Shown: piece by piece, positions 12,401 to 48,700 of the stretch | Layout of the letters: the number at the start of each line of letters is the position of its first letter | Numbering within the stretch: position 1 is the first letter of the stretch | Assembly (NCBI GenBank): GCA_010645155.1 | Contig: JAAGOF010000329.1 | Location: 202,443 to 266,442 of the forward strand | DNA: 64,000 nt | Origin: Tigriopus japonicus | Lineage: Eukaryota > Arthropoda > Copepoda > Harpacticoida > Harpacticidae | Direction of reading: 5' to 3' | Program-made: the position numbers and the translations under genes | The notes under the pieces: model-generated | Seen by the model: the letters and a program-made list of their open reading frames with translations, nothing else | Database searches by the model: none | Told to the model about the DNA's origin: nothing

Positions 12401-15400
12401 TCGCGTTTGAAAGATCATAGTTTCGAATTTGAGCAAATTCGAACATTCCAATGCTATGTACTTGCAATTAAAAAAGAGCTTTCAATGTATTTGCCAAGAA
12501 CATCATATGATTCAAGTTTTCAAGGCAAAGTCGTTGATTATTCCTTCTCAAAGAGTGTTAGGTAAAAACCAATACACTAATAGCTCAACTGATATTTTAA
12601 ATCCAACAACCTAAACTTCCTAAACTTCCAAAATGTTCAAGTGCTTGCCAGGTGATGACTTGATTTACTCAAAACATGAAAGATGATATCTTTTTCGCTT
12701 TGTGACTTATATAGCATATTCAAATTCGGGAAAGGAAATTGTGTTGCGCAAGTTATGAACACTTTTTATTCTTCAAGCGATTTTGTTAGAATTTCCATTT
12801 TTCTTTCGATACCTTTCTAACTTTTGACCCGGTTGTGTCCGTTCTCAATTCCTTGGTTTAGGCTTTTAATTTTAAGAATAACTTGATTTTTTTTCAAATA
12901 GCTAGAGGTAGACCGGTAGAAAATTTCGCTCGTAGTAATTGATGATTGGTAGGAATGAAAAAAACGTAACACCTCTTTGAAGTCTTAATGACTTGCTCCT
13001 GATTTTGTTGTGTTGAGTAAGCTATGGCAGACTTGAAAATTGCACTCATCTCCGCCTGCTAAATGCAGATAACAATCTTGAACCTCTCCCTTGAAATCAT
13101 CAATTTCCGAGTGGGATGTTGAATGTCAGGGCCTTGGGCAGATCGAGTTCAAGTGCTAACTCAACTTATCCTTTTGCGGAAACCATCGGCGTTGCAATCT
13201 AAAGAGCAGCCAGTAATTATTTCGTCCTCATTTCAACGCTCCGCTTATTAGCTCTATGGTTCTCGGAAACGTGGTTTACCTTTTGACAAAGAAACCCCTC
13301 TCTATTGGTCGCACATCTGTGCCTTCACAAGTCCTTCTCGGAGTAAATTGTCCTTTTAAAGGAAATCCTGACCTCCATTCCCCCATGAACAAGCCATAGC
13401 TTTGTCATACACCATTCCGTTTGGATATTTCAATACATGCAATTCAATCATAAATATCATAAATATACATTCATATTTGTTTGATCAGTTCAGTCAAAGG
13501 AAAGATGGGTGAATTGATTTTTGAGGGCTGGATTTTCCCGCCCCAAGGCACTTTGTTGTACGACGTGGTCGTGCAGAGTTTATTCATTCACGATTCTTTT
13601 CTTCTCGCCAAGAGCGATGAGATCGTGATGTGAGACACATTCCAACTGGGTTATCATCGCATATCATGATTTGAAATGAGTTACTGGTCAGAACAAAATG
13701 CTCCAGACCGACCTATCTACAACTAAAGCCAGTGAGTAAACTTCAATTAGTTTGATCACAACCATGAAACAAACTACTTAGGTTGTTTTTTGGCAGCTTG
13801 TTTCTGGTTTTCTCATAGGCCGTCGCGCCTCAATGAATCGGAACTGGATTTTCAAGACTTTAAGTGGATTATTGTTGTGGATCTCGTGCGTCAAAGTCTC
13901 CCGTGAAAGGTTCTAAGCTGACTCTCAATGAACTGTTCAATATTGACACGGGCTCTCAATTGACAACCTCCCATGGAGTCAGAATAAGAAAAAATAACTT
14001 TTGCCAAGACTTTGTAGTGGAGCTCTTGGAATATGGTTACCTTTCATTTCACTCCAGGGAGGATTGAACCCAACTTCACATGCTAATGGAGCAACCTATC
14101 CATCACAGAGTCAATTTTGTGTGAGCTAGCATGAAAAAGGAGAACCAGGGTTCACTATGTTTTTGATGAATCAACTCACTTTCCTCATCATCAGTCACAA
14201 GCTAAAGCTTGGTTCAATGTAATAAGTGTTCATTGTTAACCCAATTTTCATAAGAAGAGCCACTTTAATNNNNNNNNNNNNNNNNNNNNNNNNNNNNNNN
14301 NNNNNNNNNNNNNNNNNNNNNNNNNNNNNNNNNNNNNNNNNNNNNNNNNNNNNNNNNNNNNNNNNNNNNNNNNNNNNNNNNNNNNNNNNNNNNNNNNNNN
14401 NNNNNNNNNNNNNNNNNNNNNNNNNNNNNNNNNNNNNNNNNNNNNNNNNNNNNNNNNNNNNNNNNNNNNNNNNNNNNNNNNNNNNNNNNNNNNNNNNNNN
14501 NNNNNNNNNNNNNNNNNNNNNNNNNNNNNNNNNNNNNNNNNNNNNNNNNNNNNNNNNNNNNNNNNNNNNNNNNNNNNNNNNNNNNNNNNNNNNNNNNNNN
14601 NNNNNNNNNNNNNNNNNNNNNNNNNNNNNNNNNNNNNNNNNNNNNNNNNNNNNNNNNNNNNNNNNNNNNNNNNNNNNNNNNNNNNNNNNNNNNNNNNNNN
14701 NNNNNNNNNNNNNNNNNNNNNNNNNNNNNNNNNNNNNNNNNNNNNNNNNNNNNNNNNNNNNNNNNNNNNNNNNNNNNNNNNNNNNNNNNNAATGAACTGT
14801 TCAATATTGACACGGGCTCTCGATTGACAACCTCCCATGGAGTCAGAATAAGAAAAATAACTTTTGCCAAGACCTTGTAGTGGAGCTCTTGGAATATGGT
14901 TACCTTTCATTTCACTCCAGGGAGGATTGAACCCAACTTCACATGCTAATGGAGCAACCTATCCATCACAGAGTCAATTTTGTGTGAGCTAGCATGAAAA
15001 AGGAGAACCAGGGTTCACTATGTTTTTGATGAATCAACTCACTTTCCTCATCATCAGTCACTAGCTAAAGCTTGGTTCAATGTAATAAGTGTTCATTGTT
15101 AACCCAATTTTCATAAGAAGAGCCACTGTAATGTTCCATAGATGTTCCAAGAGGCGTACATCTGTTTTCTCCGATTCAAAGTACTTCTCTCAGAATCTCA
15201 TCTTTTGGAGTTAATTTGTTTTGTTCTTAAAAGAAAACACGGCTCTAATAGAGAGATATCTTAGTTCAACTGTTGGCAAGTATCTCCATTTTTGAAGAGA
15301 AGAACATATTTTACCTGAATGGTCTTCACATTAAAGAGGATCAATGAGTCTGAAATCTTGAAAGATATCCCCAAAAAACAAGTCTCAATTTCATCAAACC

Positions 15401-24400: not shown

Positions 24401-25203
24401 CCGACTATTAGCCTGGCAAACCAAATGCATCATTGGCTTTGGAAAGTGGGCCACTTTGGTGGTTCAATTTGAAATCCAGGGATATCCCGTATATCTACCA
24501 TATATTCCCTCGTTTCTTTTTCAGGCTACCATAAATGCACAAAAGAGGAGGGTTGTATGTTGGCCGCACACATTTACCGCGTGAAGTTCGGAGAATCAAA
24601 GCAAGAGCTCCAATCGATTCCACAAATGCTCCGGGAGCTCATCCCAACCGATTTGATCAAGCAGATGTCTGCACAAGATTGGAAGCGAGAAATTGTGAAA
24701 TCGTATAACCAAGACTCTGGCATGAGCCCCGAGGACGCCAAGATTGCCTTCTTGAAAATCATTTACCGGTGGCCCACGTTTGGATCGGCCTTCTTCGAGG
24801 TCAAGCAAACCACCGATCCCAACTACCCAGAGCTCCTGCTAGTCGCGATCAATAAGCAGGGTGTGAGCCTGATCCATCCTCAGACCAAGGCAAGTGTTAA
24901 ATTGCATAATAAGTCAAGTTCTATGAAATCCCAAAACTACGGGAGAAAAATTTAAGAATCACGCAACCTTAAACGTTTCCATTTTCCCCCCTACAGGAAG
25001 TTCTGGTAACCCATCCCTTTACACGCATTTCCAATTGGTCGTCGGGCAATACCTATTTCCACATGACGATTGGAAACTTGGTGAGGGGGTCCAAGTTGCT
25101 CTGCGAGACTTCATTGGGCTATAAAATGGATGATTTGCTGACCAGCTACATTTCCCTCATGCTCACCAACATGAACAAGCAAAAGTCCATGAGAGTCAAG
25201 TAA
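3474..25203 (+). CDS. MYO7A: Unconventional myosin VIIa (Drosophila crinkled homologue), complete, 24 coding exons
   Basis: Actin-based motor that, in the family, links membrane and adhesion complexes to actin in protrusions such as stereocilia and insect bristles. Coding exons: 3474-3512, 3637-3729, 3800-3967, 4036-4599, 4770-5471, 5534-5914, 5977-6135, 6252-6734, 6802-7128, 7189-7371, 7430-7668, 7732-8161, 8227-8400, 8777-9175, 9292-9409, 9831-9957, 19650-19819, 21898-22088, 22794-23171, 23249-23569, 23638-23839, 24211-24339, 24525-24889, 24997-25203. Every junction keeps phase and the joined product is about 2182 residues, near the family's usual 2170-2215. Domain order is head, five IQ motifs, charged helix, MyTH4-FERM, SH3, MyTH4-FERM, stop TAA. 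The ATG at 3474 is chosen because its 13 codons splice in phase into the conserved GDYIW start of the head. The true N terminus is the least certain part. Confidence 0.97.
3637..6350 (+). other. MYO7A: Myosin VIIa motor domain exons
   Basis: These exons encode the N-terminal SH3-like subdomain and the ATPase head, roughly residues 14-735. The P-loop GESGAGKT is at residues 163-170 (4222-4245). Switch [10 protein letters not shown] is at 212-220 (4369-4395). Switch II DIFGFE is at about 441-446 (5226-5243). The converter stretch ending GRTKVFLKD lies in the exon that starts at 6252. All nucleotide-binding residues I can see are intact, so this should be an active motor. Introns here are only 62-170 bp. 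Confidence 0.96.
6388..7128 (+). other. MYO7A: Five IQ motifs and charged single-helix region of myosin VIIa
   Basis: Residues of about 749-863 hold five IQ-type light-chain or calmodulin sites, with cores such as LQRCIRG, IQKNFRA, LQALIRS, LQARCRG and IQSHVRK. The following exon (6802-7128) begins with about 70 residues dense in E, K and R, as expected for the single alpha-helix that extends the myosin VII lever. It is followed by a less charged linker containing the FGFLED motif seen in the family just before the first MyTH4. Confidence 0.92.
8162..8226 (+). other. Non-canonical GC-AG intron in myosin VIIa (first MyTH4-FERM junction)
   Basis: The protein homology requires the exon to end at CAG (8159-8161) and resume with GCC ACC at 8227. 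The intron therefore begins GCACGA and ends CACAG. A GT donor further in (8183) would also stay in frame but would insert seven residues absent from relatives. A GC donor is the simpler reading, though its +4 to +6 bases fit the GC-donor consensus less well than the intron at 24890. Confidence 0.65.
8401..8776 (+). other. Myosin VIIa intron, AT-rich, nothing recognised
   Basis: This 376-bp GT-AG intron separates residues DKV from SSLGSGG. It is rich in A and T runs. I see no exon, repeat or RNA gene in it. Confidence 0.8.
9410..9830 (+). other. Myosin VIIa intron, nothing recognised
   Basis: This 421-bp GT-AG intron splits a glycine codon (phase 1) before GPNLPKND. The last 90 bases happen to be open in the exon frame, but relatives have no extra residues here, so I do not call an alternative exon. 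Confidence 0.8.
10765..10902 (+). CDS. Small alanine-rich ORF in intron 16, doubtful
   Basis: A 45-codon frame ([13 protein letters not shown]... to TGA) sits in a locally GC-richer patch unlike its surroundings. The same frame is open upstream for roughly 25 more codons. The product is basic and alanine-rich. I recognise no family. The compositional island suggests a relic of a mobile element or a decayed exon rather than an active gene. Confidence 0.12.
   Translation: MDTLRAAAARGAKVKAAVISSIGRAAIIDYWSNSEYCHGRKKYGP
10994..11033. repeat. Interstitial telomere-like pentanucleotide tract (CCTAA/TTAGG)
   Basis: Eight consecutive 5-bp units keep strict register: CTTAA, CTTAA, CCTAA, CCTAA, CTTAG, CCTAA, CTTAA, CCTAA. 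Four are exact complements of the arthropod telomere repeat TTAGG and the rest differ at one or two bases. The tract is short and degenerate, so it may be an old repair scar or a chance AT-rich microsatellite. Confidence 0.55.
11251..11955. repeat. GGCCAC-rich dispersed repeat bounded by a 14-bp inverted repeat
   Basis: About a dozen copies of TTCGGCCAC or its complement occur in two clusters (11281-11320 and 11771-11946), in both orientations. The segment starts with CCAGGCTTGCCAGG and ends with CCTGGCAACCCTGG, which are inverted copies with one mismatch. No target-site duplication or transposase frame is seen. It could be a non-autonomous DNA element or a fragment of a larger repeat. Confidence 0.4.
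13927..14269. repeat. Left copy of a 343-bp duplication ending at the assembly gap
   Basis: This stretch is nearly identical to 14791-15132. The copies differ by about four substitutions and one single-base indel in an A run. It runs exactly to the first N. Two contig ends that overlap but carry different haplotypes would look like this. Confidence 0.9.
14270..14790. other. Assembly gap (521 N)
   Basis: A run of undetermined bases lies in myosin VIIa intron 16. The flanking sequences are near-identical copies, so the gap is probably a scaffolding artefact and not missing DNA of this length. Confidence 0.99.
14791..15132. repeat. Right copy of the gap-flanking duplication
   Basis: This starts at the first base after the gap and matches 13927-14269 with about 98.5% identity. 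It carries the one-base deletion in the A run. See the left copy for interpretation. Confidence 0.9.
16290..16375. repeat. Imperfect GGTT-rich simple repeat
   Basis: Repeated GGTTGGTT blocks are interspersed with GGCT and GGTC variants. It is a low-complexity stretch in intron 16 with no other function visible. Confidence 0.6.
17138..17152. repeat. (GT)n microsatellite
   Basis: About seven GT units lie in intron 16 of myosin VIIa. Confidence 0.8.
17920..17948. repeat. (TTTC)n microsatellite
   Basis: Seven TTTC units are followed by CTGTCTGT and a short ACGTACGTATGTATG stretch, a typical compound microsatellite. Confidence 0.85.
19820..21897 (+). other. Myosin VIIa intron 17 (2.1 kb), nothing recognised
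   Basis: A phase-1 GT-AG intron joins KAPG to an A codon before EGSSFLNL. The open frames inside are short, and I see no repeat or RNA gene. Confidence 0.75.
21898..22088 (+). other. MYO7A: SH3 domain exon of myosin VIIa
   Basis: One exon encodes about residues 1586-1649, with the SH3-like landmarks [16 protein letters not shown] and [14 protein letters not shown]. This SH3 separates the two MyTH4-FERM units, as in all myosin VIIa proteins. A minus-strand frame of 148 codons over this exon is a shadow. Confidence 0.93.
22089..22793 (+). other. Myosin VIIa intron 18, nothing recognised
   Basis: This 705-bp phase-0 GT-AG intron lies between the SH3 exon and the second MyTH4. A T-rich stretch (22600-22615) is visible and no other feature. 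Confidence 0.8.
23840..24210 (+). other. Myosin VIIa intron, nothing recognised
   Basis: This 371-bp phase-1 GT-AG intron lies between the RDG and STPQF residues of the last FERM domain. No additional feature is seen. Confidence 0.8.
24890..24996 (+). other. GC-AG intron in the last FERM domain of myosin VIIa
   Basis: The exon ends CAG ACC AAG and the intron starts GCAAGT, the textbook strong GC donor (AG then GCAAGT). It ends CCCTACAG before GAA GTT CTG. The joined protein [13 protein letters not shown] aligns with the conserved family sequence. No GT donor gives that join. Confidence 0.88.
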
Positions 25204-25480
25204 ACACGCGTGTTGATCAAGTTTTTTTTTCCTGACAAATATCTGACTAGTTGAGGAGAGACTTGTTTCACCTTAGACACCAAAGGTGCCTTTCCTGGAA
25301 ATTGTGCAATGACATAATATAATAATTGAGGTTGCTTTATGGAACAGAACCAGTCCATTTGTGGACAAAAAATGTTAGTCCACACTTTATCTGGTCCTTC
25401 CACTACCCTCCCTCCCCTAAAATCGATCGAACTGTAAGTTACCGCGTTTCACTTCGAATAAATGAAAGCCTAAAGTATGA
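25204..25480 (+). other. Probable 3' UTR of myosin VIIa
   Basis: Non-coding sequence follows the TAA stop and runs to the first canonical AATAAA. It faces the 3' end of the CSPG4-like gene on the other strand. Confidence 0.5.
25457..25462 (+). terminator. Candidate poly(A) signal AATAAA for myosin VIIa
   Basis: This is the first AATAAA on the plus strand after the stop codon, about 255 bp downstream. Cleavage would be expected near 25475-25490. Confidence 0.5.
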
Positions 25481-25493
25481 TTCCAAAATTGTA

Positions 25494-25499
25494 TTTATT
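25494..25499 (-). terminator. Candidate poly(A) signal AATAAA for the CSPG4-like gene
   Basis: TTTATT on the plus strand reads AATAAA on the minus strand. It is the first such signal after the CSPG4-like reading frame ends at 26119, giving a 3' UTR of about 640 bp. It lies 32 bp from the plus-strand signal of the converging gene. Confidence 0.45.
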
Positions 25500-26118
25500 T
25501 TGGTCCTTGGACCATGTTCGTAAAATCGATATTCTTCAAGAGATGATTTGAAATGTGCTGGAGTATTGTTATTATTGTTGTCGTTGATGTGATCATTATT
25601 ACTATTAGGACAGTTTTAGTAGAATGCCAATATTCCAACAGTTAGCATTGGCCATGAGTATTCTCAGCTACCTCCAAAAATACAAATTTATCACAGCAGT
25701 GGTATTAATTTCGTGGGATGAATGCTTTGGGTACTTTTTACATTCCCAGGGGCATCAAGGTTTGCCAATCGGATTGAATTACATAGTTACTTGGTTTGGC
25801 GATTGGCAAGATCTTTACGAAACAAAGAGATGAAGACTCCAAGGGGCGTTGAAAATGGGCTCTAAGTTATTGGGTTTTTGTGTTTCAGGAGGGGTACGTT
25901 TTACTTGTTCGCGATGATCACAGGTTCTTACCAAAAAGGGGGATTGAACTAACAATAAGAACAGAAACATAAAATAGCAAAAATACGAGAGACACCAAAA
26001 CGAGGCAAGATTCGTCGAAATAAAACCAACACAAGCTAATCTGGAACGGAAACGGAACTCGAAACTCAAATGAACAAAAGACGGAAGCAAATCTGATCTG
26101 AAAATCAAACGGACCACT

Positions 26119-26781
26119 TCACACGCTGCTTTCTACATTCTCTATGACCTCGGGATCGGTCTTCTGAATGAGACTCTCCTGGCTTCCAAGGAATGAGGTC
26201 GAAGCGAAACCATCGACAGAGCTCATCTTCAAGTTATTTCCCATCCGACCTCGACCTTGGGAGGTCAGCGAATGAGTGCTCGTTCCTCTTCTCATGGTTC
26301 CCATGGCACAGTTTTGACTTGAACACTCGCCCGAATATGTACCTTCCAATCGAGCTCGTTCCATGCAATCATCACAGGGTGGAACCGTGTCAAATGGAAC
26401 GACATCCGGCTCAATTGAGTGTTGAGACATGGAGGTGGTGTTCTTTAGTATTCCTTTTAAAGGTGGTTTTGGAAGGGTGTTTGTGGTAAACTGGTAGGCC
26501 TGGTTCAGAAAAGCTGAAGGTCCATTAGAACGCAAAGAGGTTGTCGGGAAGTGCTTCGGTAAAGTGGACATAAAATGATTTTGAGGGCGAAGGTGGACTT
26601 CTTCACAGCCATTGATGTGGGGATGGATGGGCAATATTAGAGGGGTTTGTTGATGATGAGAGATAAGTTCCGTACTATTATTTGTCGCCACTGTTGTTGT
26701 GGCAGCTGCAGTTCCTCCGTTACTTTGACTAACTTGGCGGCCTTGCGACGAATCCCGGGGAAGATTCGCCGGCTCTCTTTG
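26119..26781 (-). CDS. In-frame 220-codon readthrough extension of the CSPG4-like protein (candidate)
   Basis: Immediately after the TGA that follows QYWV, the same frame stays open for 220 codons (26781 down to 26122) to a second TGA at 26119-26121. With equal base use the chance of that is about 3 in 100,000. The predicted peptide is serine- and glutamine-rich with protein-like segments: LPKPPLKGILKN (GILK fits the SILK-type docking motif for protein phosphatase 1), a cysteine cluster C-x2-C-x13-C-x4-C, and a C-terminal ESSV, a class I PDZ ligand. I see no transmembrane segment. The stop is UGA-C and a hairpin follows it, so translational readthrough is the favoured reading. Alternative splicing that skips the stop is the main alternative. 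It matches no protein I recognise. Confidence 0.6.
   Translation of the reverse strand, partial: QREPANLPRDSSQGRQVSQSNGGTAAATTTVATNNSTELISHHQQTPLILPIHPHINGCEEVHLRPQNHFMSTLPKHFPTTSLRSNGPSAFLNQAYQFTTNTLPKPPLKGILKNTTSMSQHSIEPDVVPFDTVPPCDDCMERARLEGTYSGECSSQNCAMGTMRRGTSTHSLTSQGRGRMGNNLKMSSVDGFASTSFLGSQESLIQKTDPEVIENVESSV
26746..26771 (-). promoter_or_regulatory. Hairpin 10 nt after the CSPG4 stop codon, candidate readthrough element
   Basis: On the minus strand the arm CGGCGAATC (26771-26763) pairs with GATTCGTCG (26754-26746). There are nine pairs including one G-U, plus two further U-G wobbles, around a CCCC loop. It begins after exactly 10 bases of spacer from TGA. Stem-loops just 3' of leaky stops are known to stimulate readthrough in viruses and some animal genes. 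The pairing is read directly from the sequence, but the function is inferred. Confidence 0.5.
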
Positions 26782-27723
26782 TCATACCCAGTATTGATTG
26801 CGTCTCAATAAGGTCTGTGGGCCGCCGTTCCCGTTCATGCCATTCCCATTTATGGGTACTCCGTTTGGTCCCGTCCAGGCCTCACTTGGGGCGTTTGATT
26901 CGGCATCTGAGCCTGATCGTGGATACATTGGACCATAGGGTCGATCAGAGCCCAAATCGGAGCCTAAATTGGAAGATGTCCGTGGAAAGGGAGGATTTCC
27001 ATTGGCTCCAAGAGTGGTATATGCCGATGGGTCCGAGAAATGCGTTCCATTGCTTTCTGAGTCACAAAGTGGTATGACTCGAAATGGAGGCATTCCTGGT
27101 GGAATTGAAGACGCTGGCGAAGTCTCTCTTGACCTCGAGCTTTCCATCCATGAGTCCGAGTCGCTTGGGTTGAGTTGGGTGAGTTGGAGGGAGGCAGGAT
27201 TGGGCAAAGTAAGACTATTATTGTGTGAATGATTGCCATTCATCGTTGGTCGCGGAAGTGTTCCGTTGGTGTGAATGTGAGCAAATCTTGGGTCATTATT
27301 GGATCTTTGGTGACTGGAGAGGGCATCATCGGTGGGCATTGGGAGAATTCCATTCTCATAATCTGTGGTTGACTGTCGATCAGGTTCATAAGCATGAGTG
27401 TGTCCATTACTTTTGTTGACGGGGGTTCGCCTTTGGGCTGTCCCAAAGTGGGTGTGGTGAGTTGAAAGAGAATCCGAGTTATACTTGATATCGGCAGACG
27501 ACGCAGTCGTTGATTCCCTTCCGTAGCGTTTTTGCTTCTGATCTCGACGGCACTTGATGAGGAACACAACCAAAATGATGATTAGAAGTATCGTGACCAC
27601 CAGGATCATCACCAGGATCAACGTTCCAGCCATAGGATTCACATGGTTAAGCTCATTTCCGCTTTTCTCCTTGATTCCACGTGGGTACGAATTGGTGTAG
27701 GTCTCTTCAGGAGGAACAATAGG
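26782..27723 (-). other. CSPG4: Last CSPG4 exon: membrane span and cytoplasmic tail ending QYWV
   Basis: This exon encodes 313 residues. A short stalk (PIVPPEETYTNSYPRG...) is followed by a 22-residue hydrophobic span at 27621-27556 and then a basic stop-transfer cluster KCRRDQKQKR. The tail of about 257 residues is rich in serine, asparagine and glycine with histidine/asparagine stretches, much longer than the roughly 75-residue vertebrate tail. It ends RRNQYWV, the conserved class II PDZ ligand of NG2 proteins, followed by TGA at 26784-26782. Confidence 0.93.
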
Positions 27724-30700
27724 CTGAAAACACAAAAGCTGGGAGTACAGGGCACAGTTATGAGGCTGCAAGAACCTTATCAAACCGGAAGGCATCAATC
27801 AATACTAAAAAAGGTCTTAAAGAGCGTTGCCTAGCATTTTTTTTGTCATGGCTTTACTCCCCACACGGTTAATCGCAAATGCTACCATATAAGTCGAATT
27901 CCATTCCCAAGGAACCTACTCTAGAATAGGACGTGCCAAGCACTTTCCCTTGCGAAATAAGAGAATTTCTTGGGGAAATGTCAATTGCTCTAGCTGTGTT
28001 CCAAGATCATCATGATTTCACACTTCATTACCTCTCGCTCAATAGAAAAGCCAAAGACTCCATTGGCTGGTTGAACATTGGGAGCAACGAGTCGATAAAC
28101 AAAACTGTCATTTGCGCCTTGGCCTTGGAGGCTTTCCAAAGCGCCAAGATCCGGCACAAAATGGATAATCCCATTCTTGACATCCTCGTGGGTGAATTGC
28201 CAGATCTCTCGGTCTCGGAGAGACCGCTTTGAACGATTCGTGTTCTTGGACTGTCTTGTTGACCCCGATGAGCGAACGATCCTCATAATACGACCAAATC
28301 GAGGGGCTTCGAGGAGGAAATATACTGGATTACTGTTTGTCAACCCTGACAGTTGAGTGGCATCCAGATGCTTTTGAAGCAACACTGTCTTCTCCTTGTG
28401 TTGAGCGATGAATGGTTGGCTCTGTCGAACCAAAGGCGCAACCGATACGTGGAACAATTGATTGGACAAAGAGGCTCCTTGATTGAATATATAGCATTCG
28501 AAACTGTCGTTGGACAAGGTCATATCGGTTTGCATAAACAAGACCTCTTCGTGATCGATGTTGATTTGGGTGAAGGCAGCTGCTGGTTTGTCATTCATGT
28601 ACAATTGTCCCCCTTTCGGGTTTTTCGTTACCTCGAAGAACGTGTTGACACGTTGGCCATTGGTCATCACTCCCATATTATGGGAGGAGATGTAGGCCAT
28701 TCTCGTGCCTTGTTGGATCTCAATGGCTGTGCGATTCACGAGTCTCACCTCCAAAGGAAGGATATGGATCCTGAAGTGTCGATAGACTGGTTTGTACATG
28801 CCGTCGCTCACTCGGAAGTAAAAATCCACAGGCTTTAAGGTTCCATCGTGAAAGTACAACAATCGCTCCATGTCGATGTCTGCTTGCGTGAATCGAGCCA
28901 CGTCGGTCGTTCGGTTATCTTTGAAGTGGAGCCGACCATTGGATGGAAAGTTGATGACATCATAAACGATTTCTGCTGGGCTATTGTCACCATCCTCTGT
29001 CAGAAGCATCTCTCGGGTTATGGCTCTAGCCTGACTCTGCACAATGGTCATGGACGGGGAGTCTGTTAGAAGTCGGAAGGCTTGGTCGTTAACCGGTAAA
29101 ATGGACACGTTCCACTTGCCATTGTAGAGGAGGACATCACCTTTTGTTCCCTTTCCGTCACCATAGACCTCACTTCGATCGCCTTCCAGGTAAATGGCAA
29201 CGCCGAATGAATCGTGTGTGGTGTCGCTATGATCATGATGATAGGACATGAAGCCACGATCCACATCAGCTTGCGAAAACATCTGTCCAGTTCGAGCTTT
29301 AAGGCCGTTTATTGCGATAAAACCATGATCTGGGAGCTTGGAGATTTGAAGACGGATCATAGGTGGTCTGGGAGAGCTGGCACCCTGACGAGCTTGATGG
29401 CTGTAAATGTATTGCAGCACTCCAGTCGTGTTGAGGTCCCTGGTGAGAATGGCCACATTTTGACCCTCCTCCAGAGTGACAATGTCACTCCCAATGAAGC
29501 GATCGATACCCCCTGGGATCATGGCGGACACCGACACTCGAACATGGAACACTATGTCCAACTTTTGGACGGCAAATTCCGAGAATGCTTCCAGATTAAG
29601 TCCGTCGAAGATGGTGAGATTGGAAAAAGGTCGGTTGTGCTCATAGAACACCAAAGAGCCATTGATATGAGCTTGTGTGAAGTTCCTCACTGGAACCATT
29701 TCATTTGAGCGTGGATCCTTGAAGAGCACACGGCCGTGCTGTGGCTCTCGTTTCACGATGAAGGTGATTTCTCTTTTGGGATTGAAATCCGATGACACCA
29801 CGAGCAAATGATCACTCGTCAACGCGGTCTGCATCATCGGAAACACGTCCAGAGCCTCGTTTTGGGACAACCTTAGGGACACGTCTTTAACTCTTATCCG
29901 AAAATATTCCGTTTTAGCCGTGTTCAAACCATCGCTCAACGTGACCTTCATCATTCCATTTCTTCCACCTGAAAAAAGCGAAAAGGTAGAAAAAGCTTAT
30001 GAGATGAGAAGAATATGCTTCTTTGTCCGATGTGAGTCGAAATTTAAAGGTAAAAGCATCATTACAAGGATAATTTATGAGGTGAACCCCTCGCAATTTG
30101 CAAGAAAATGATAAGTGGGGAGCTTGCCCTGCTGAGTTCGCATTGATCCTTTGAACTTCAAAAACTAGACTTCCCCTGCTGTAGAGGGAAAAGGAAATCT
30201 CTCGTTGGAAAATTGGATTCTCCGGTCACATTCATCTCTTTGTACTAAAGCAGAGAACGGGGTAAAAAGATGAAGAGGAGCCAAGAAAACCGTACACGAT
30301 AATGAGAGCTCGAGTGAATCTCTCATGAGAGGCTCGAACCAATTTTGTCAATCACTCTAAATTCAAGGGCACGTTAGTTGTTCTTGGATTTCCGGATCCT
30401 AAATGAAGGTCTTGGAATGACAATTGTCTCACATTAAGTTTTCAGTCACAAAGTACCATCCAGGTTTCATCACGGTCACAAATGGGACGCACGGGTCCTA
30501 TTTCACAAGACTGTCTAATGTAAGCGTTGTAGTTGTTGTTTTGACCTGACCAAAGTCGAAAAAACTACTGCTACGTGTTTTTTTTTGCACTAACGACCAA
30601 AAAAACAAACTTGCAGGTTGTACTCGTTACCGCTGAGCAATGGTTGTCCATAATTGTCTTTCACACAAAAGTGAGCGTAAAGTTTGGCAGTTTGGCAATA

Positions 30701-33700: not shown

Positions 33701-36700
33701 GAAACACCTGCCAATGAAAATGGGACAACTCGGGAACCCTGAGTCAAGATTGGACCCATTGGGGCAGCAAGATCTGGCCGTTGGGCTTAGTCACATGAAA
33801 GAGCTTGAGCGAGCACACTATGGAAATCAATTTGTGGGATTAAGCCGGGCACAGATACCACTACGGACGTACAATTCAGTTGGAGGAAACCTCGGTAAGC
33901 AAGTACGAAAAATGGCTGTGGAATGAGCCAATCCATTTTGTCGTGGGCCACATCCAGACTCGAACTGGATTGACGCACACATATCTGTGCCATGGATCTA
34001 CAGTAGTGTTGGAGGCTATTGATCTCTTAAGATCCCAGGATCGACCGTAAGAGCCTTATTTTATCATGGATGATGGAGAGCAACTTAACGAAGATGAGAC
34101 ACACAATAGCAAGAAACAGCCATGATTTTCTCTATCGTTTATATTAGTTTGATTAATCTAGATTCAATGACCGGGACGTCCCCATATCAACAACACTTCC
34201 CACTCAGGAAAGCTCCCGTACCAATTACAATCCTGGGTGTTCATTAAAGGATTTGGCGAGGACGTTGTTAATGGGACAAACGCAACGACCTCTTTTAGAG
34301 ACCCATTAACACGCGCTTGAGCTTCATTCCAAGAGAAACGAAACGAGCAACGGGGACTCAACGAAAGATTTGGGGCATCAAACTCTCTCTCAAAGCCGAC
34401 TCGACACTGAACATGGCATGTGCATTTCCTAACTAAGTGCATATCGTAATGCACAGATTAATAGCTCGTGGGTGTATGTAGCCACATGGAATATGGAATT
34501 GCCAGTCATGATGTCAACTTGGACTTTGTCGTAAATCGGGGTCTCTTTCTTTGACGAATGATTGTCCACTGATTGCGGTTGGGAGATTATTATTATTATT
34601 ATTTCCACTAGAAATTGTGGTCTGGAGAGTCATAAATGGACTAGGTTGAACAAAGTAAGGGGGAAGCTCCGTTTGGGTCTCTCTGGCTTTCCGAAAGGGA
34701 ACATTTTGTTTGTCACCTTAGGGTCCCCTCAACCAGATGAAAGATTATACCTTGTCGTTCTCTTTGAAACTAGTTTACTTACTTACATACACGAATGGTA
34801 GGTCAATTTCATGGTTTGCATTTCCATTGTGAGACTCTCCCTATTTGCTACTTTCCGCTTTTCGATGGTGAGGAGAAACGAAGAGAGCGAAAGAGTGACT
34901 AATCAAAAGGAAATGCAGACCGCTTTTCCATATCTGAATCAAGTCAGGCCCAAAGTTTTGTAATCTAGTGGAAACCACGAAATTTCTCAAGGGCTACTTT
35001 GACTTTCATAAACAGGCCTCGTCTGAAAGCCCTTGTATATCGGCTTTTAAACCGTAACAAGATAGACGGTCGTTGTTTGCTCAATAATGACTAGAGTAAA
35101 AAAGCGGTATTGATCATTAGGAGCCCATAATGGTCTTCAACCTCTAAGATGTAGGAAAGCATATCAAAGTTGGAAACATGAATCGCTTTGGCTTACTTTA
35201 TCAACGCCATATTTTTGATGACTAATTCGCGGCCAATTTTATACATAAACAAAAGTCTCTGAAATGATAACTGGTGGTCTTTCAGGCCCAATCTTCTGAA
35301 AATGCTGTTCTCGAGTTCACGGAAATGGAACCGAGCAAATACTGCACAGACAAAGTTGCTTGAGCTCAATGCACTTGTGCAATCCCATTCGTCATGTTGT
35401 TCGCGTGGAACCGTTTCTCATTTGTAAAGGCGTGGAAGTGACACGCCTACTTCTCATTTACATAACACTTGCAACTCTCGCCTCCGATTATGTTGAGTAT
35501 GCACATTTTTCATTTTCAAGACCGTTTTGATGAGGCACGAATATTTTCAAAGATTGGATTTGTCCCAAGGACATGGCTGCAGAAGTCCTTGGACAGTTTG
35601 AACACAAGAATAGAGAGAGAGAGAACAAGCGAATGTTTTGTGTCAACTTTTTTCAAAGCAAACTCGTAGTTCGCTCTTCCGCTTCACTTTTTTCGAGCTA
35701 ATGGATCTTTTGTTAAAAGCATCTGCTCAGTAGGGGAGCTTTAGTAGAAGAAGGCGGAGAGAGAGCCCTTCGAAGGAGTCCTTTCACCTAAGATTGGTGT
35801 TAATATTTGCTGAAAAGACACCTCCACTCCCCACTTTCCAGTTCGCCGAGATGTGGACTTTGGACCCCATTTTGGACCGAACAAACGCATCGAACTTTCT
35901 GTTGCTCTGTCAAAGAGCGAACGGCCTTTTGAGACGAGCCAATGATTTTGCGAACCAAAATCAGCCAAGCAAAAATTTCACTCTTGTACTTTCCTTGAAG
36001 ACCGTTGCTTCAGTCTTTTGGAACACTTTGGAACATTTATGTTCTTGTTTGGTCGTAATATGCTAATGAGGACTGTAACGTTTCAAAAACAATGCCATAT
36101 CGACAGTGGACACTTTCCCTTCTTGCATCAATTACGAAAAACTTTCCCCCTATCATCCGGAATGAGGATCGTTGATTCGAGGTTCCCCTCCTTGGAACCG
36201 CAATGACGAGGTTCCACTCCTATGCCACACGAGCTATGAAGCTGTGGCTCTATTTTCAATTCAGAGCATTTTCTCGTTGAATAACTTGGATAATCTAGTG
36301 GAAAGTTGGTTAGTAGTCCTCCTCGTCTCTTTAGCCCTTACTACAGTATGTGGAGTATTACTTTGTTCGTGGGTGTCTGCGTCAAGAGGAACAAGAGCAA
36401 GCATTCCCTTTCCTCGATTGGACCACTGAAGAGCAGTAGATAACTTGGTTCGCGGTCTGTAGGCCATTTGGGACAATGAATGAAACCGTGTGTACATAGT
36501 AGTGGGTACTTTACGTAGGCGAGGAGGTTGTTCCCCATTGTGGCTTCACTGAGGGACAATTATCTACTAGTGGAGCCATAAGTTAGAAAAGATGTCAAAG
36601 CTTACCTCGACCGTTTGCTCTTTTAAGTCCTGGATGGAGAAGATGGTGAGGCTCTCATCGTTGCGATTTTTTCGTCGCCTGGACTTTTCAGAGGACACGA

Positions 36701-39700
36701 GCTTGCCCGAAGTCGGGGGATCCACAATCAAATAGTCTTCAATCTTGTCCTCGTAATACGACGTGATGACATGCATATGGGAAGGCAGGAGGGGTGTCGA
36801 TTTTCCTTCAGTCACTGTCATCTCACGGGTCTCGATGTAGAGTGTCTTGGGGAGGATGGTGAAATGAAAGTGGAGGTCCGTCAATTGACTTATCCCATTG
36901 GTCACATCAAAGACGAACGAATCTGAGCTCTGATTTGAGATGGACTGAATGTAATGGAGGCGACCTTCATTGATGATGCTCTGATCAAACACATTCACTT
37001 CAAATGGGGAAGACGGGGGGAATCCTGAGTTGGGCAAATCTGCACCCGCGAAAAGTTGTGGGCCCCGAATTGACAAAGACGAAGAGGATGAGGAGGAAGA
37101 TGGAGAGAAGGTCATAGGAGTCTTTTGAGAGTCCAGGTCTCTTTGTATTTGTAAGAATTTGCTCTCCTCGGAAGTGATGGGAGGATCAATTTCTAGGTAC
37201 CCGAAACGAGGAGGCACTTTCACCATGTAAATTATGTCTTTGGAGGATATATCATTGGACGTCACGGCCGGAAGAATCTGCAATGCAAAGGAAGTTTTGA
37301 AGAAACTACTTAGGCACACTCATTGCAGTAGTTTCAGTCAGCATAGGAACCTAGTGGCAACTCAAGGAAATGATCTATGTATGGGTGGTCTCTGTGAAGT
37401 GAGATTTGTTCGTGCTTCAATACTGCCACTGAATTAGAATCGAGTTCCATTTGAAAGGAGGGCCTTCAGCCCTTTTGTGTCGGTCTGGAATAGCCCATGG
37501 GATTTGCCCGTCGTTGTCCATTTATGCGGCTGAGCAACTACCTAATGTTCTGAATACATTATCTATTTACCTGCAGGTCCCTTTGTGTGATGGCGATGCT
37601 CGTGCTTTCCTCCACAAGAAGTGAGTTATTGCTAGCGATTTCAAGAGGCTCCCAATAACTTTCTGGAAACACGTGAAAAGTCAGCGTTCCGTGAGCACTT
37701 GGACCTGCTCCACTCTCTACGGCGGCAGAATTTCCATAATTGATAGCTTCAACCGTGAATTGGAGCACGTCCTTGAGGGTCTTGGAACTATCCGTGTCTA
37801 CGCCATTCCTATTGTTCCTGTACTCGATTCGTTGCTCGAGTAGATCCAGTTCCGTAAAGTCCCGAATGGGCACATCATCCCGAAACATTTCCCCGTAGGT
37901 GGGTCCTTGTTGAATGCGATACACAATGTCCTTCCCTTGGTTGTTCAGATTGGTTTCCACGCTCAAATTGTACAAGGTCAGGAAAGCGGACTCGCCTCGT
38001 TGGACTATCAAACCGCTATTGTTTGCCACTTTGATGAATGGGGGCGAAGCTCGGACCTTCAATTCGGTGCTGACGTAGTATTGGCCGTCACTCACCCACA
38101 ACATGAGTCGACCGAAATTGGCACCAAGGTGCTTGAAGAGGATTCGCTCTTCATTCAAATCACGTTGTGTGAACTTGTAGATAGGCTGACTGGGGTTCTC
38201 CACGAGGACCAATTCCCCAATGGGTATTGGAGGGTGATTGTAGTGAATATCCTCTGGCTTTGTATCGATATCCAAGTCAATGAACTTGAGGTCCTTGCTC
38301 GTCAGGAGTCTCTGACCTCCTTCCACTACTTGGAACACTTTATCCACCACTCGGGTTGGGGTCTGATCGTTACGGAGCACAACGAGAATGTGGAACACTG
38401 CCAAATACTGGAAATCATGACGGGACTGCGAACTGGTCACAAAGAAGTGGAACGTGTCTCGACGAGATTCGGAATCGTCATGGATGTACACAACGCGCTC
38501 ATCTTGAATCTCCTCAGATGTGAAGAACGACGTGTTTCGTCGCATCACTTCCACTTTATTGGCAGCTAAGATGTCGATTTGGCCGTGCTGCGGAGGTTTC
38601 GTCACATTGTATACAAAATGGTGGATATCCGACACTTTAATGTTCAAATACTTGGGAGTAATGGCCTTCTTGCCACCCTCATCCACTTCCAGACGTTCCA
38701 AAGTGATTTCCACATCTGCATCTCCTGGAACGTAGTGCAAGTGAAACATCTGAATGGCCGATTTCTGTTCCACGGTTTGCACCACAAAAGAGAAATTATC
38801 ATCCAGGGCCTTCTGGGCCACATGTCGAAAAAGGCGGTATTTCAAGAAACCCGCCAATAAGTCCACTTGTGAGAATGACGAATCTACCCGCAGTTCCCGT
38901 TCTTGTTGAGTGAGACCATCGGTTCCTGCTTGGGTCAAGAGTAAGGCACCATGTTTGGGGGCTGACTGTATGGTATAATACACCTCAGAATCTTCGGACC
39001 TTTGGGGAAAGGTCTGATACATGAGATGCGAATCGGTGATCACAGTTTCCCTCACATTGATCAGCTTGAGGGGGATGTTCCTCAAGGCCTGAACTTGGAG
39101 AGTGATAAAGTTGATGTGGAAGATATGTTGGTCCAATTTGGCATCCTGATCACTCGCTGGTCCATGAACGATCGTGTCACCGCCATCTTTGGGGCCGCCA
39201 CCATTTGACAGGTCCAAAACGACGGCTGTGAAGCGGAAACTATCCTTGGAGGGGTTCCCTTTGGTGTGAACATATCGGACCTTCTCCTTCTCAAGTTGGC
39301 GGGAAAAGAACCTTTTGGTGCTGACCCAGCGGCCGTTGCCTCGAAGGCGCTCAATTCGACCGTAACGAGGGCTCTGAAGCACATCAAACCTGTAAAAAAG
39401 TGACAGATGTCAGACCTACACGCTATGTACAGAGACTGATGCGTAATCCAATCGACCTCGACCTTGATGCCATCGCCGGATTTTACTTCTATATTTAGAT
39501 CTTCTAGACTGACGGGTGACCTTCTTGGGTAAAAAGCAGTGCTCTAGCAATTGGTTCAAGTCATCAGACCACTTTTTGTAAGTACCCGCTGATAAGAGAT
39601 AATTCCTCTTGAAGATAGACCAACAACCCAAAACAGAAATTGAGTTCCTTGGTTCAGATCGTTTTTGTCAAACGTATTGCATGGTAGATCTCCATTTTCT

Positions 39701-42700: not shown

Positions 42701-45700
42701 GTCAGTCTACCCTCTTCAGTGTTTACACAAAAACACTTAATTGCAAAAAGTTAACGCTTCTCGAAGCATTCATCTTGAAGATCCCCAATAACACCACTTG
42801 AGACGTGAGAATCAAGGTCTCAGATGTTGAGTACGAGTACCCTTGAATTTACCGCCTTTCATGGATGTAATTGAATTTCTGGTTTACGAAAAGAATTGGA
42901 TCCACACGAACTAAATTGACTTCAGACCACAGAGAAGCTCCCCAAAGAGAGCACGTTGTTTTTTTTGTGGATAAATAATACATGTGTGTGTATGTGTGGC
43001 TTTTCAGCGAGAAATGCTTCTCTAGCATAACCCTATCTGCAAAAGATCAAAAAGCTCGGATTCTTTTCCCCCGACTAAGTCAAGATTTTCATGGAACAAC
43101 AAATTCCATTTAGATGAACTGATGAAACAACGATGGTTCTCTTTTTCTTCAAAAACAACGTTCAAGAATGTTCTTAGGAAATCCTAATATCAAGTTATTC
43201 TCAAACATCCCTTCCTAGTGAAGACTGAAACTGTCCTTTGGAATTGACTTGAAAAATCTTGCTCGTGTTCCCGGACCCTATTTACATATCTTGAAATGTG
43301 GCATAACATTAGTCAGCTAGAGGAGTCAGAAGATCGAAAGTTGGTTTTATCACTTACCGAATGTTTAAACTTTGTTCAGGCGCATTGGTGGTGAATGTCA
43401 GATTGTAGGAGGTGATTAAGGCACTGGATCCAGTCGGTAAACTTAGACCAGTGTTGTTCACAGCGAAAACCTGGAGTTTAAACGTCTGAATACGAAGGGT
43501 CACGACATTGCCCTCGTGTCGGCCATCCGAGATCCGGAGGCCCAATTGAGAGTCCGAACTATCGCCCTCATCCACGTAATAGATGTGTCCCTCACGCAAA
43601 TCCTGCAGGGTGAAGTCATCTATTCGCTGACTCGGGTATCGGTCATTTCGGAGAAAACCTCCGCTCTTCTTCTCATTTCTATTCACCACACTGAAGACAA
43701 TCTCTGAGGCCAGGCTATCCGTATCTCTGACCTCAAAAAGATCCCCACTCAAGAGCTTCTCAGTGGATTGGGCCAGACGAAGAGGATCCAAGTTGGCCAA
43801 TTTCACTTGGGGGATGTCATTCTTGGGCACGATCACAATTTGGAACAGGAAACGTTGGCGCTTTTGCAAATGCGCCGGCAAATTCCCGGACGAACTGAAT
43901 TCCATTTCAAACACGATTTGGTCGGTGGTGAATTCCGAGCCATCATTCACATAGTGAACCTAGAACGAAATCGACCGGATCCATCAACATCAACACTTTG
44001 AGACTTTGAATGAACACACCCTGTATCGTGTCGGAAGGAAAAACGGAGGGTCTAATTTATGTGTTCAATCTTCGCCTGCATCCTCCAATATCAATCAAAA
44101 CATGAGAGATGGCCCCTCATGTTCCGCCTTATCCGAGGTGACTGATTTCCCCATGATTCCCAAGCTAGGCTAACCTTTACTCGAGAAAGTGCGAGGAATG
44201 CAGTTTGAAAAGCCTTGCCTCGTTCCAACCACCACAACAACCATCTTTACCGATATGAAATGACATTTCTCTTGCCAACATACTTTACTTACATAGGCGG
44301 TATTGGGAAATTGAAAAAAAGTCTTGGTATGTGCACAATGGTTGTCGCGAAACAAACTCAAAAACATGAGGTTTTCCTTCCATGTCAACAGGTAACAGTC
44401 ATATTTCAATGGGCCAAACGAGGTTGTCGTTCCGATTCCGGATTCCGGAAAAGGAAACCTCGTCCATTATACGATGTGGTCGAGGTAAATAACAGGGTTG
44501 CTTTTGTCCTCGTTTAACATCATCTTCGGGAAAAGTCGTTGAAAAACAAAGAAACGAACCTCAGCACTCAACTTAAATAACAATTTGGAACGAGTCAGGC
44601 CCTCTGATTTTGTAGTGTAATTGCGATGGATTGGACGAAATTATACATTGCCAAAGTACTTATTTACCTCATGAAAGATGGATTTGTCTTTAAAAAAGGT
44701 GAGGCGCAAATAAACAAGATCCAGTCAGATTGGTGCCAATGAAGGATATAAATGAAAAATGAGGCTTTTTCTCTCACTGAGAAAATCCAAGGTCTTTTTT
44801 TTGTAACGGGAATGGACCAAAATCGAGATGAAACTTCTTGGGACTAGATTAAAGAGCATGTTTTGATCGGGAAAGAGGCAAGAAAACGGGGAAGCAAGCA
44901 CTAAGTAAACAAATAAAACTGAAGTAAAAAGGAGTTTTCATTGGCAATTACTCGCGCAACGTTTGATCTGCACCTAAGCCATTAACCCAAAATGGAAAGT
45001 GCAAAGCAAGAGGGGAACACATCGACAAGCTCTTTCAAGGCTGACGGCTTTCATAACTTACCTTATCGGTATTGAGATCCAGAAGGGTAAAAATGTTGTC
45101 ATCCACCTTGTTCCAAACGGATACGTCCAATTTGCCATGGGTTGGCATTTCCACCATGTGGAAGAGTACACCGGATTCCTTGACACCGTACTTGGCGAAA
45201 TCCGTAACTACATGAAGGTGATGCGATGTCAGGAGAGCTCGACCGCCTTCCTCAACTTCCAAGGCCTTCAATGCCACCAATTCAAGGTTCTAAAACATAA
45301 ACAAGGTCACGTCAGTAACGCAATGGCTAGCCGAACCTTGTCTAAAGTACAAATTAAGGGCACGTCCAGACAAAAGCTTCACCTCCCATCTCTTTTTGGT
45401 TGTGTTTGCTTTTGTGGATCCTTCTCTTTCTCTGTTCCTCTTCAGGAATTCAATTAGACCCCTTAATGGTTGGTGGTAGTCAGTGATCGAGGCACCGACC
45501 AAGACCATCATGATCTGCTCTTGAAAGGGATCAACTTGACTTAATCCCGGGGATTAGCAGAGAGCGAAGCCATGTCCTCTAGGACCTCGTCGTCGTCTCC
45601 GTCGTCCTTTACAGATTCCCCTATCATTCTGGTGGTTAAACATTTGAAAAGTAGACTCACAGAGAGAGTGCTAAGCGAGACCTTGATATGGATTTGCAAA

Positions 45701-48700
45701 TGGTCACAAATTGAATTGAAGAGAAGGAGAAAGAGTTACTTAGTCTTTTATACTCTTGACAGAACGATGATTCACTTGAAAAGGACTGATTTTTACGGAG
45801 CTGAGGGTTTGTTTGAAAGAGTGTTGACTCATTCGATACTAACATTTACCGATACAGTCAAAGATGGATAAAGAATATTGTCGGTCAACAGAAACAGTAT
45901 TCTTGTATCGAGAGTTCTTTTTTGCCAAGAGACGTTACCTACTGAATGTACAGTATATTTGTTAAGCGACAAAAGTATTTTTTGTTCAAGAGATATTTTT
46001 CTATCGAGTATTCTTATCTCCAACTATGACAGCATTTACTATAGGCAGCTAAAAGTGGCAAGGAACGAGAATTTTCCCTTGTGGAGCATTCAAAATCTGG
46101 GACATAAAATACACGTGGTGTAACTACGATTCACTTATAGCGCGTGTTTTGAAGTTAACAAGAACCAACCATGATCTTTCCTCTACGTCATTGTCAATTC
46201 ATCGTAAGTATAGGCTCCAGTAGCAAAACTTTTAGTAAACAAATTTCTATAGTAGAAGGCAATGAAACAAGTAACCTAGCCAAAAGTCAACTAGAAGTGA
46301 ATGAATTGGCCAAGGCTAGTCGTCGATCCTAATTAGCCTCATTTCATTGAAGTTCATTGTTTCTTCATGGCATTTTCTTAACATTTTGGCCGAGGGCTTA
46401 AATCAAGTGTTTCATGTTCCTTCGCTCTAAAGAGGATCTCGTGCAAAGCCACGATGAGTCAGGAGGATATTACCGGGTTTTTTTCGGACAGAAGTTATTC
46501 CCGTGATTAGGGAGATTAGCTCCACAGAGATTAATGATTGTGAGCCATCAGCTAAAGTGCCGAGAAGCAAATGGGACGGATTTCTGAATTGCAACGGCTC
46601 CAGTTCCTCTTATCAAAAGGGAACACTCGCATTGAAAACCAACCAATCCGCTCTCCCTCTCCCTCTCGCTCTTTCTCTCACTTCCTCTCATCTTAAAAGA
46701 CTTCATTCATTCAATGGGCTTACCTTGGGCTGGGGTGAAGTTCTCGATCCACCCGAGTTGCATTTTCCATCCCGACATGAGCATTCGTAGTCTTGCGTTC
46801 CCTTTTGGGAACATGTTCCAATACCGAGACACAACTTGCCATCTCGAAGACAAGGGAACTCCCACACACAATCGGCCTGAATGCCAGAGGTCTCAAGCAC
46901 ATCGTTCAATCCAATCCGTCGTCCATCTAACTCGAGGTCTTGTAGACATCCTTGGAGATGTCTTTCACTCGAGATGACGCCCTGTTCCACGGCTCTCGAC
47001 CTCTTTGAGCTCTCGATCCCGCCAAAGTAGAGTAGACCACTGAGGTCGATGTGCTTATTCTCACCCTTTGAAGGCCTCAAGGTACGAGTTTCGCCATCTA
47101 CTGTGACCTCAATATAGGATGGATTGAATTGGGCCTTGATGGCGTGCCAAGTTCCGTCGCTAATCGAGATGTCGCTTTTGAGTTGAATAACCCCGTTTCC
47201 CTGTAAAATAATGGGAGGAGAGTTGAGGTGATGAAGATCCTGATTAATGAAGCCGTGTCTCACACCGGGAAGCAAAAAAGTCTAGTCAAAGATAATTGTT
47301 GGGAATTCTCGCCCATCTCGTTACCACTTGTTTTTCTGGCAATTATTCAATTGTCAGGAACTAGCCCAGACAGACTCAAGATCATTCTCGATTGGATGAG
47401 GTCTGTTGATAAAGTCAAGCTGAAAGAAACACCGTTTCAACTTCATTCTCACCTGATCCAAAAGCAGTCGAGGTAGGCCGTTCCAAATCTCTAAAGCGAC
47501 GAAATCTTTGTTCGCTGATGGGCCAGTGTTGTAGAATAACACAGCATTGGTCGAGTGGGTCTTGACCTGGAACAAGGAACAACGAGAGTGGAAATGTAAT
47601 CAGGATGTAAATCAGTAGCGTCATCCTTCCAAAAGATCCCTCTTTTTCCTTCTTCCTTGAGTGATGATGAAGTGGATTTTGGGACAAGTTATTCAGGGTA
47701 ACAAAGAGGGGGTTGCTAAGCTTTTCTTTTGGCCAAAGAGAGTACACCATAAAGCCAATTTGTCATATTGTCAGTTCGGCCAACCATCCATCTAACCAGA
47801 GAACCATTGAGTTTCCTTTGAAAATGACTTTGACATTGAAGAGGGGACCCTTTGCAAATCACGGAAAGTGTGACTCGATACCAAAACTTCGGACAAGATG
47901 TTGAATTTCCCCTACACTCGATGGTTTCCTAGAATCCGTTTACCGTGCCTGTTTGGTCGGGAATGTAAATGTGGCAGAATAGGGCTATAAAACGAGATGT
48001 AATAGGAAATACATGCATGCCTCCTCTGCCCTTCCCTGAATAATATCTTTCGCCTTTGTGTGTCTTTTCAGATTCCTTATCATCTCGGAAAGAGGTAAGA
48101 AGGTGGTCCAAGGACGTTGTGGGCGTGTTTAAAACTTAATCTAAATTACTCACACAACTGAAGTCGATGTGGAACTTGAGTCTACGAATGGATCCAATGT
48201 TTGCAATTTCAGGCTTTTTTTCTCCTTTTGAATGTTGAAATGTTCCACTTGGGAGTCTATTTGTTTAACCTTTTATTGAATATTGTACCGTTGGAAGTTG
48301 GAACCGGTTGCTAGGAAAGCGTTCCAAGTCTAATACTTGTCACGATCAGAACCTCAAACTCCAAGATGGCATCCTCGTTACGACCTTTTAAATGTTGTCC
48401 CCAGAGTGCCTCAAAGTCCAGATCTAGGTCACTTATCCTCGGCGAGGATAGTAGTATTAGTAATGAATGGTTCATTTACTTGAAACACCCGGTGAGGTGC
48501 TTGAGTTGAGAGCCAAAGGAACGTTGAGCAGACGAACATTTTTCTAGTATCTCGCTCGAGCACAGATCTGTGCGCATGACAGTAATGGAAAAGGGTTCAC
48601 AAAAAGCGCCCAGGCTCAGATATTTTTGGGTTCGCAACCTCATAGTACTCTGCCGTACTTGAAGGACGACTACAATATGAGAGAAAGTCAACTTTTGAGT

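Follow-up and report, generated by a model that had tools for sequence, protein, structure and literature searches.

The CSPG4-type gene of the copepod Tigriopus japonicus raises the question of whether this membrane protein has a second C terminus. Its coding sequence reaches a stop codon directly behind the expected terminal motif, and the same frame then stays open for a long distance. We asked whether the sequence behind the stop (the extension) is protein and, if so, by which route ribosomes might come to translate it. The analysis concerns a stretch of 64,000 nucleotides, hereafter the window.

Gene structure and reading frame

We identified the gene on the minus strand of the window. 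Its exons encode a Laminin G match (Pfam Laminin_G_1/2, 46706-47281) and Cadherin_3 repeats (Pfam matches at 43357-43959, 37559-39409, 36570-37319 and 27990-29996), all on the minus strand, and thus belong to a gene of the CSPG4/NG2 type. The last canonical coding exon (26785..27723, minus strand, 313 codons) was delimited from its translation and from an acceptor, tttcag, read in the sequence. From 27723 down to 26785 it encodes the juxtamembrane part, a hydrophobic transmembrane stretch and a cytoplasmic tail that closes with LLRRNQYWV. One transmembrane stretch followed by a tail with the C-terminal PDZ ligand QYWV (26785..26796, minus strand) is the arrangement of the family, and a passage of PMC4560422 names this motif as the one by which NG2 binds PDZ domains. 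We place the gene, as a homologue of CSPG4/NG2, in the kon-tiki/perdido family, and the CSPG4/NG2 assignment made in the original prediction is borne out by the Pfam matches to Cadherin_3 and Laminin G in its exons.

The neighbouring gene on the plus strand (3787-24952), convergent to the CSPG4-type gene, encodes a MyTH4-FERM myosin with matches to Myosin-head, IQ, MyTH4 and FERM. Several hundred N in a row, a gap or a withheld stretch, lie at about 14200-14880 of the window and create spurious open frames on both strands.

At the end of the last exon the minus strand reads CGC AAT CAA TAC TGG GTA TGA CAA AGA GAG, that is, R N Q Y W V stop Q R E. The first stop, TGA (26782-26784, minus strand), is followed by CAA and thus stands in the UGA-C context of leaky stops. 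Behind it the same frame is open for 220 codons (26122..26781, minus strand, read from 26781 down to 26122) and ends at a second TGA (26119-26121, minus strand). QYWV, the TGA, the C behind it and the 220 open codons are all as originally described. The segment first given for the feature, 26119..26790, covers the same feature; its proper extent is 26119-26784 on the minus strand. The sole AATAAA of the minus strand within 24900-27723 (25494..25499) is located past the second stop, and the mRNA can therefore carry the extension.

A chance open frame was considered for the extension and set aside. The probability of 220 open codons is 1.4e-5 under a Markov model of the window stretches taken as noncoding and 2.7e-5 under the segment's own composition, which matches the value of about 3e-5 estimated earlier. 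Among 2065 stop-to-stop runs from the stretches taken as noncoding, the maximum is 143 codons. The other two minus-strand frames across the extension contain 10 and 11 stops, and the reverse-strand frames contain 8, 11 and 8. When the genome holding the window (194.85 Mb, 158 contigs) was searched with the extension, we found one full match, plus one weak match (E 0.10) on another contig.

A 10-bp stem with a 4-nt loop is predicted from nt 12 after the UGA (26747..26770, minus strand), and is marginal. Among shuffled sequences 3.6% fold as well at 40 nt and 22% at 45 nt, and 1.3% of 3427 windows of 45 nt across the 64 kb do so. Because 22% of the 45-nt shuffles are as good and longer folds downstream of the UGA are ordinary (z 0.34, -1.38 and -1.47), the stem is only a lead.

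Conservation of the extension

The extension alone, used as a query, matched 18 proteins among 144 candidates, with E values from 7e-122 to 5.3e-5. One of them (P0002) is 99% identical across 86% of the query, with two mismatches, one of which is its start Met against the Val of the window; the other 17 are 30-53% identical to the extension. VESSV is the C-terminal end of all 18. PLKGILKN is present in 15, and P0019 starts with MKGILKN. An extension-only ORF found later, P0066, contains PLKGILKK, PPCDDC and EAVESSV. The extension of the window includes the stretch FDTVPPCDDCMER.

We aligned the extension of the window with the 17 matches of 30-53% identity. The 18 sequences share 21 invariant columns, including D126 V127, P129 F130 D131, P134 P135 C136 D137, C139, C153, C158 and the terminal VESSV. 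The cysteine cluster noted in the original prediction is thus real, as C136, C139, C153 and C158 are invariant in all 18. Such conservation would not be kept by untranslated sequence; therefore, the extension is protein. Conservation of the frame behind the TGA in relatives, which had been proposed as the check on the prediction, is positive at the protein level.

The conserved part reaches upstream of the first ATG, which is codon 71. Codons 58-70 (GCEEVHLRPQNHF; 26572..26610, minus strand) are conserved in relatives, and in the match to P0003 none of 300 shuffles of P0003 was as good. Codons 43-68 match P0014 (p 0.01). Residues 1-70 match at p <=0.05 in eight of the 14 relatives tested and residues 1-45 in five of the 14, both counts being uncorrected and partly due to low-complexity T/N runs.

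We also scored codon usage, with training on 2899 codons from the Pfam-supported ORFs of the window and 4000 noncoding windows as the null. For codons 116-220 (the last 105), no noncoding window of the 4000 scores as high, and one reverse-strand frame scores slightly higher (0.085 vs 0.069). For codons 1-57, 10.6% of the null windows reach the same score, and one other frame exceeds it. In codons 58-115 the score resembles that of noncoding sequence, though they are conserved as protein, and the measure is therefore weak here. It does not tell the strands apart in the last 105 codons, is uninformative over codons 1-115, and is given no weight for the first part. Taken together, the extension is conserved as protein, firmly from about codon 58 and weakly before it.

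The extension has no convincing match in Pfam (one at E 0.27), and none in the PDB at E up to 1. Full-length proteins with the extension as a region were not found at E up to 10 among 1472 candidates. Profile scans of viral_contigs and genome_contigs with the extension alignment and the tail alignment yielded no confirmed DNA of a relative.

C termini of related proteins

We then used the tail exon plus the extension, with X at the TGA, as a query, which returned 45 proteins. These are not independent species, because some are near-duplicates. The tail matches end in QYWV (34 proteins), MYWV (two), ESSV (two: the fused P0028 and the extension-only P0066) or otherwise (seven, P0038 among them). 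QYWV is the normal stopping place of the family, with 36 of the 45 ending in [QM]YWV. The first stop of the relatives is placed here by the ends of their ORFs, and is to that extent putative.

In two cases a QYWV-ending and a VESSV-ending ORF can be paired. The tail P0023 and the extension P0008 have the same source label and the same longest listed contig (3464 bases), as do the tail P0026 and the extension P0015 (157179 bases). Each pair thus appears to lie on one contig with the stop between the two ORFs. A partner tail was not found for the other 16 extension matches in a search that covered tails of about 294 residues and more. P0002, which is 99% identical and comes from another source, has its start at GTG codon 31, where an ORF behind the TGA could first begin; the stop thus appears to be present in that source as well.

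Two proteins are exceptions at the stop site, where P0028 has W and P0038 has N. P0038 reads on past QYWV into NFNLVLAHEVQVNTG, with no intervening stop and 15 more residues in all, and there are intron-like inserts in its tail. Its lineage may have lost the stop or may have an intron there, and the stop is not universal.

P0028 (571 aa) reads QPLLRRNQYWV-W-QRPPTDF ... KPLKGILKNN ... VLDTVESSV. Its near-twin P0041 is the same over 272 residues except for one substitution and one gap, stops at QYWV, and diverges from P0028 upstream, at an apparent exon edge. For this reason P0028 has the look of a spliced cDNA, and P0041 resembles genomic DNA from that species or from a sister species. Tail and extension are contiguous and in one frame in the P0028 lineage, whatever the origin of the W, which may go back to a TGG allele, to an edited UGA or to a gene caller that reads TGA as Trp. 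No other protein with both tail and extension was matched in either search, among lengths outside 935-1154 aa.

Directly behind the stop site, P0028 and the window share QR. The P0028 extension is without the PPCDDC four-cysteine block and keeps GILKN and VESSV; the module thus seems separable. An hhalign comparison of the P0028 extension with the extension alignment covers 13 columns around GILKN (probability 28.5). Because the block is missing and the alignment spans these 13 columns only, homology of the P0028 extension rests on QR, GILKN, VESSV and position. A tree built from 42 tails separates the window from P0028 by a long, fully supported split. The tree has long branches that meet and was used for this deep split only, and its rows without a known extension mean only that none was seen. 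Since the window and P0028 are separated by the split, the extension probably predates it.

Alternative explanations

Alternative splicing could deliver the extension if an intron removed QYWV and/or the TGA and joined the tail to the extension, with the unspliced form ending in QYWV. The stop lies in TGG/GTATGA, which resembles a 5' splice site; P0038 has sense codons after QYWV, as might be seen with the start of an intron at this point in its lineage; and the coding evidence for codons 1-57 is weak. However, a phase-0 donor at this site needs an in-frame xAG acceptor, and these are found at codon 3 (too close) and at codons 76, 94, 97 and later. Codon 76 already lies inside the conserved block, and an acceptor there or later deletes the conserved codons 58-70, and a donor at the stop is therefore contradicted. 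Another upstream donor may be joined to a weak acceptor in codons 1-57, but all CAG and TAG sites in these codons have a pyrimidine fraction of <=0.47, and the best AG among them is an AAG at codon 13 (0.68). Tail and extension are, moreover, contiguous in the apparently spliced cDNA P0028. We consider splicing an unlikely source of the extension. Initiation at its own AUG, which would make the extension a separate small protein, is suggested by the first residue of the extension ORFs (M in 17 of 18, L in one) and by the first ATG of the window's extension, which begins MSTLPKHF, present also in P0003 and P0009. Database starts are choices of ORF callers, however, the starting Met is without a common position in the alignment, and placement in frame right behind QYWV-TGA would be a one-in-three chance. 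As the first ATG is codon 71 and codons 58-70 are conserved, a separate start is contradicted, and we regard it as extremely improbable.

The W of P0028 (TGG, or TGA read as W) could also mean that the long protein is the normal one and that the TGA of the window reflects either an error of assembly or a nonsense allele of recent origin. Against this, YWV ends 36 of the 45 tail matches, and in P0002, from another source, the ORF likewise opens only at the earliest start available behind the TGA; we give this explanation next to no weight. Both the splice explanation and that of a TGG codon are weakened. The same W bears on A-to-I editing. Two isoforms, QYWV and GILK/ESSV, in two deep CSPG4/NG2-type branches might be chosen in some lineages by editing of UGA to UIG (Trp), and the transcript-like P0028 carries W at the very point where the near-identical P0041 comes to an end. 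A gene caller that reads TGA as Trp, or a TGG allele, gives the same picture, however, and an A with a G before it is a poor substrate for editing enzymes, which counts against editing of UGA. Editing on these grounds seems very unlikely. Selenocysteine is compatible with the codon, which is UGA, but the fused relative P0028 has W rather than C at this position. It was set aside as barely conceivable, since no SECIS family is among the four matches that Rfam gives for 24900-27300 (E up to 5).

Features of the extension

We identified three features that may give the extension a function. GILK, within PPLKGILKN (codons 110-113; 26443..26454, minus strand), is conserved and is found also in P0028 and P0066. 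It resembles the SILK-type PP1-docking motif. SILK-type PP1 regulators combine [GS]IL[KR] with an RVxF-type motif, and none of the latter type was noticed by eye in the extension.

The four invariant cysteines form a module of the pattern CX2C-X13-CX4C (codons 136-158; 26308..26376, minus strand). An AlphaFold model of the extension is mostly of low confidence (mean pLDDT 53.4). Its best-folded stretch is residues 131-160 (block pLDDT 76-86), with a helix at 137-146. The module might be a metal-binding knuckle.

The new C terminus is ESSV (26122..26133, minus strand), preceded by V in all 18 matches and also in P0028 and P0066. ESSV fits the class I PDZ-ligand pattern (S/T-x-hydrophobic), and QYWV a pattern of class II. 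Readthrough would bury one PDZ ligand, QYWV, and expose another, ESSV.

Proposed mechanism

Functional readthrough of the UGA is the best explanation of the conserved extension, and a very probable one. The original prediction of readthrough is supported by the conservation as protein, by the paired ORFs and by the P0028 fusion, as well as by the evidence that contradicts a separate AUG start and a splice donor at the stop. Under readthrough, a fraction of ribosomes would decode the UGA-C after NQYWV, probably via a near-cognate tRNA, and would translate 220 further codons before the next UGA. QYWV would be the end of the short form. The long form would lose the free QYWV and gain a mostly disordered tail with GILK, the compact four-cysteine module and the ESSV end. 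With different C termini, the two forms should thus bind different PDZ scaffolds. We infer this route, the PDZ switch and the roles of GILK and the cysteines from comparisons of sequence.

Comparison with known systems

Research on CSPG4/NG2 and on the fly homologue deals with muscle and with glial repair, and the portions of this literature that bear on the C terminus discuss one PDZ motif there. If a second conserved C terminus with another PDZ ligand is real, studies based on the short form overlook the long one, and a membrane receptor could be moved from one scaffold to another by stop-codon readthrough. With its long and well-conserved extension, the locus could also serve to test why such stops are leaky.

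Sections of PMC4560422 give QYWV as the PDZ-binding motif of NG2, with GRIP1, syntenin, MUPP1 and OMI/HtrA2 as partners, and a passage of PMC4095857 describes a C-terminal PDZ-binding sequence in the fly kon-tiki/perdido protein. The gene of the window resembles CSPG4/NG2 and kon-tiki/perdido in its Laminin G, Cadherin_3 repeats, one transmembrane stretch and C-terminal PDZ ligand. The relevant portions of the papers on these proteins make no mention of a long form with a second C-terminal module. We found no report of readthrough of CSPG4/kon-tiki/CG10275, or in copepods, in the open literature searched; the fly gene may be listed in supplements or in FlyBase. Readthrough itself is already known, and this long, deeply conserved case with a swap of PDZ ligands is unreported in the literature searched.

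According to sections of PMC5100048, most of the insects tested, and Daphnia pulex as well, have abundant readthrough, and ancient readthrough candidates have TGA with a 3' C more often. The window is like the Anopheles and Drosophila cases treated there in having a conserved in-frame extension after a UGA-C stop, and differs in the length of its extension, which at 220 codons is very long. Fly extensions are disordered and motif-rich in the account given in part of PMC4999894, and that of the window is alike. A precedent is AQP4ex, the readthrough isoform of aquaporin-4, as described in portions of PMC6444679; aquaporin-4 is a membrane protein with a canonical PDZ-ligand C terminus (SSV) that has another C terminus after readthrough. 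The genes are unrelated, and the extension of the window, unlike that of AQP4ex, has a new and conserved PDZ-type ligand at its end, so that one ligand would be swapped for another.
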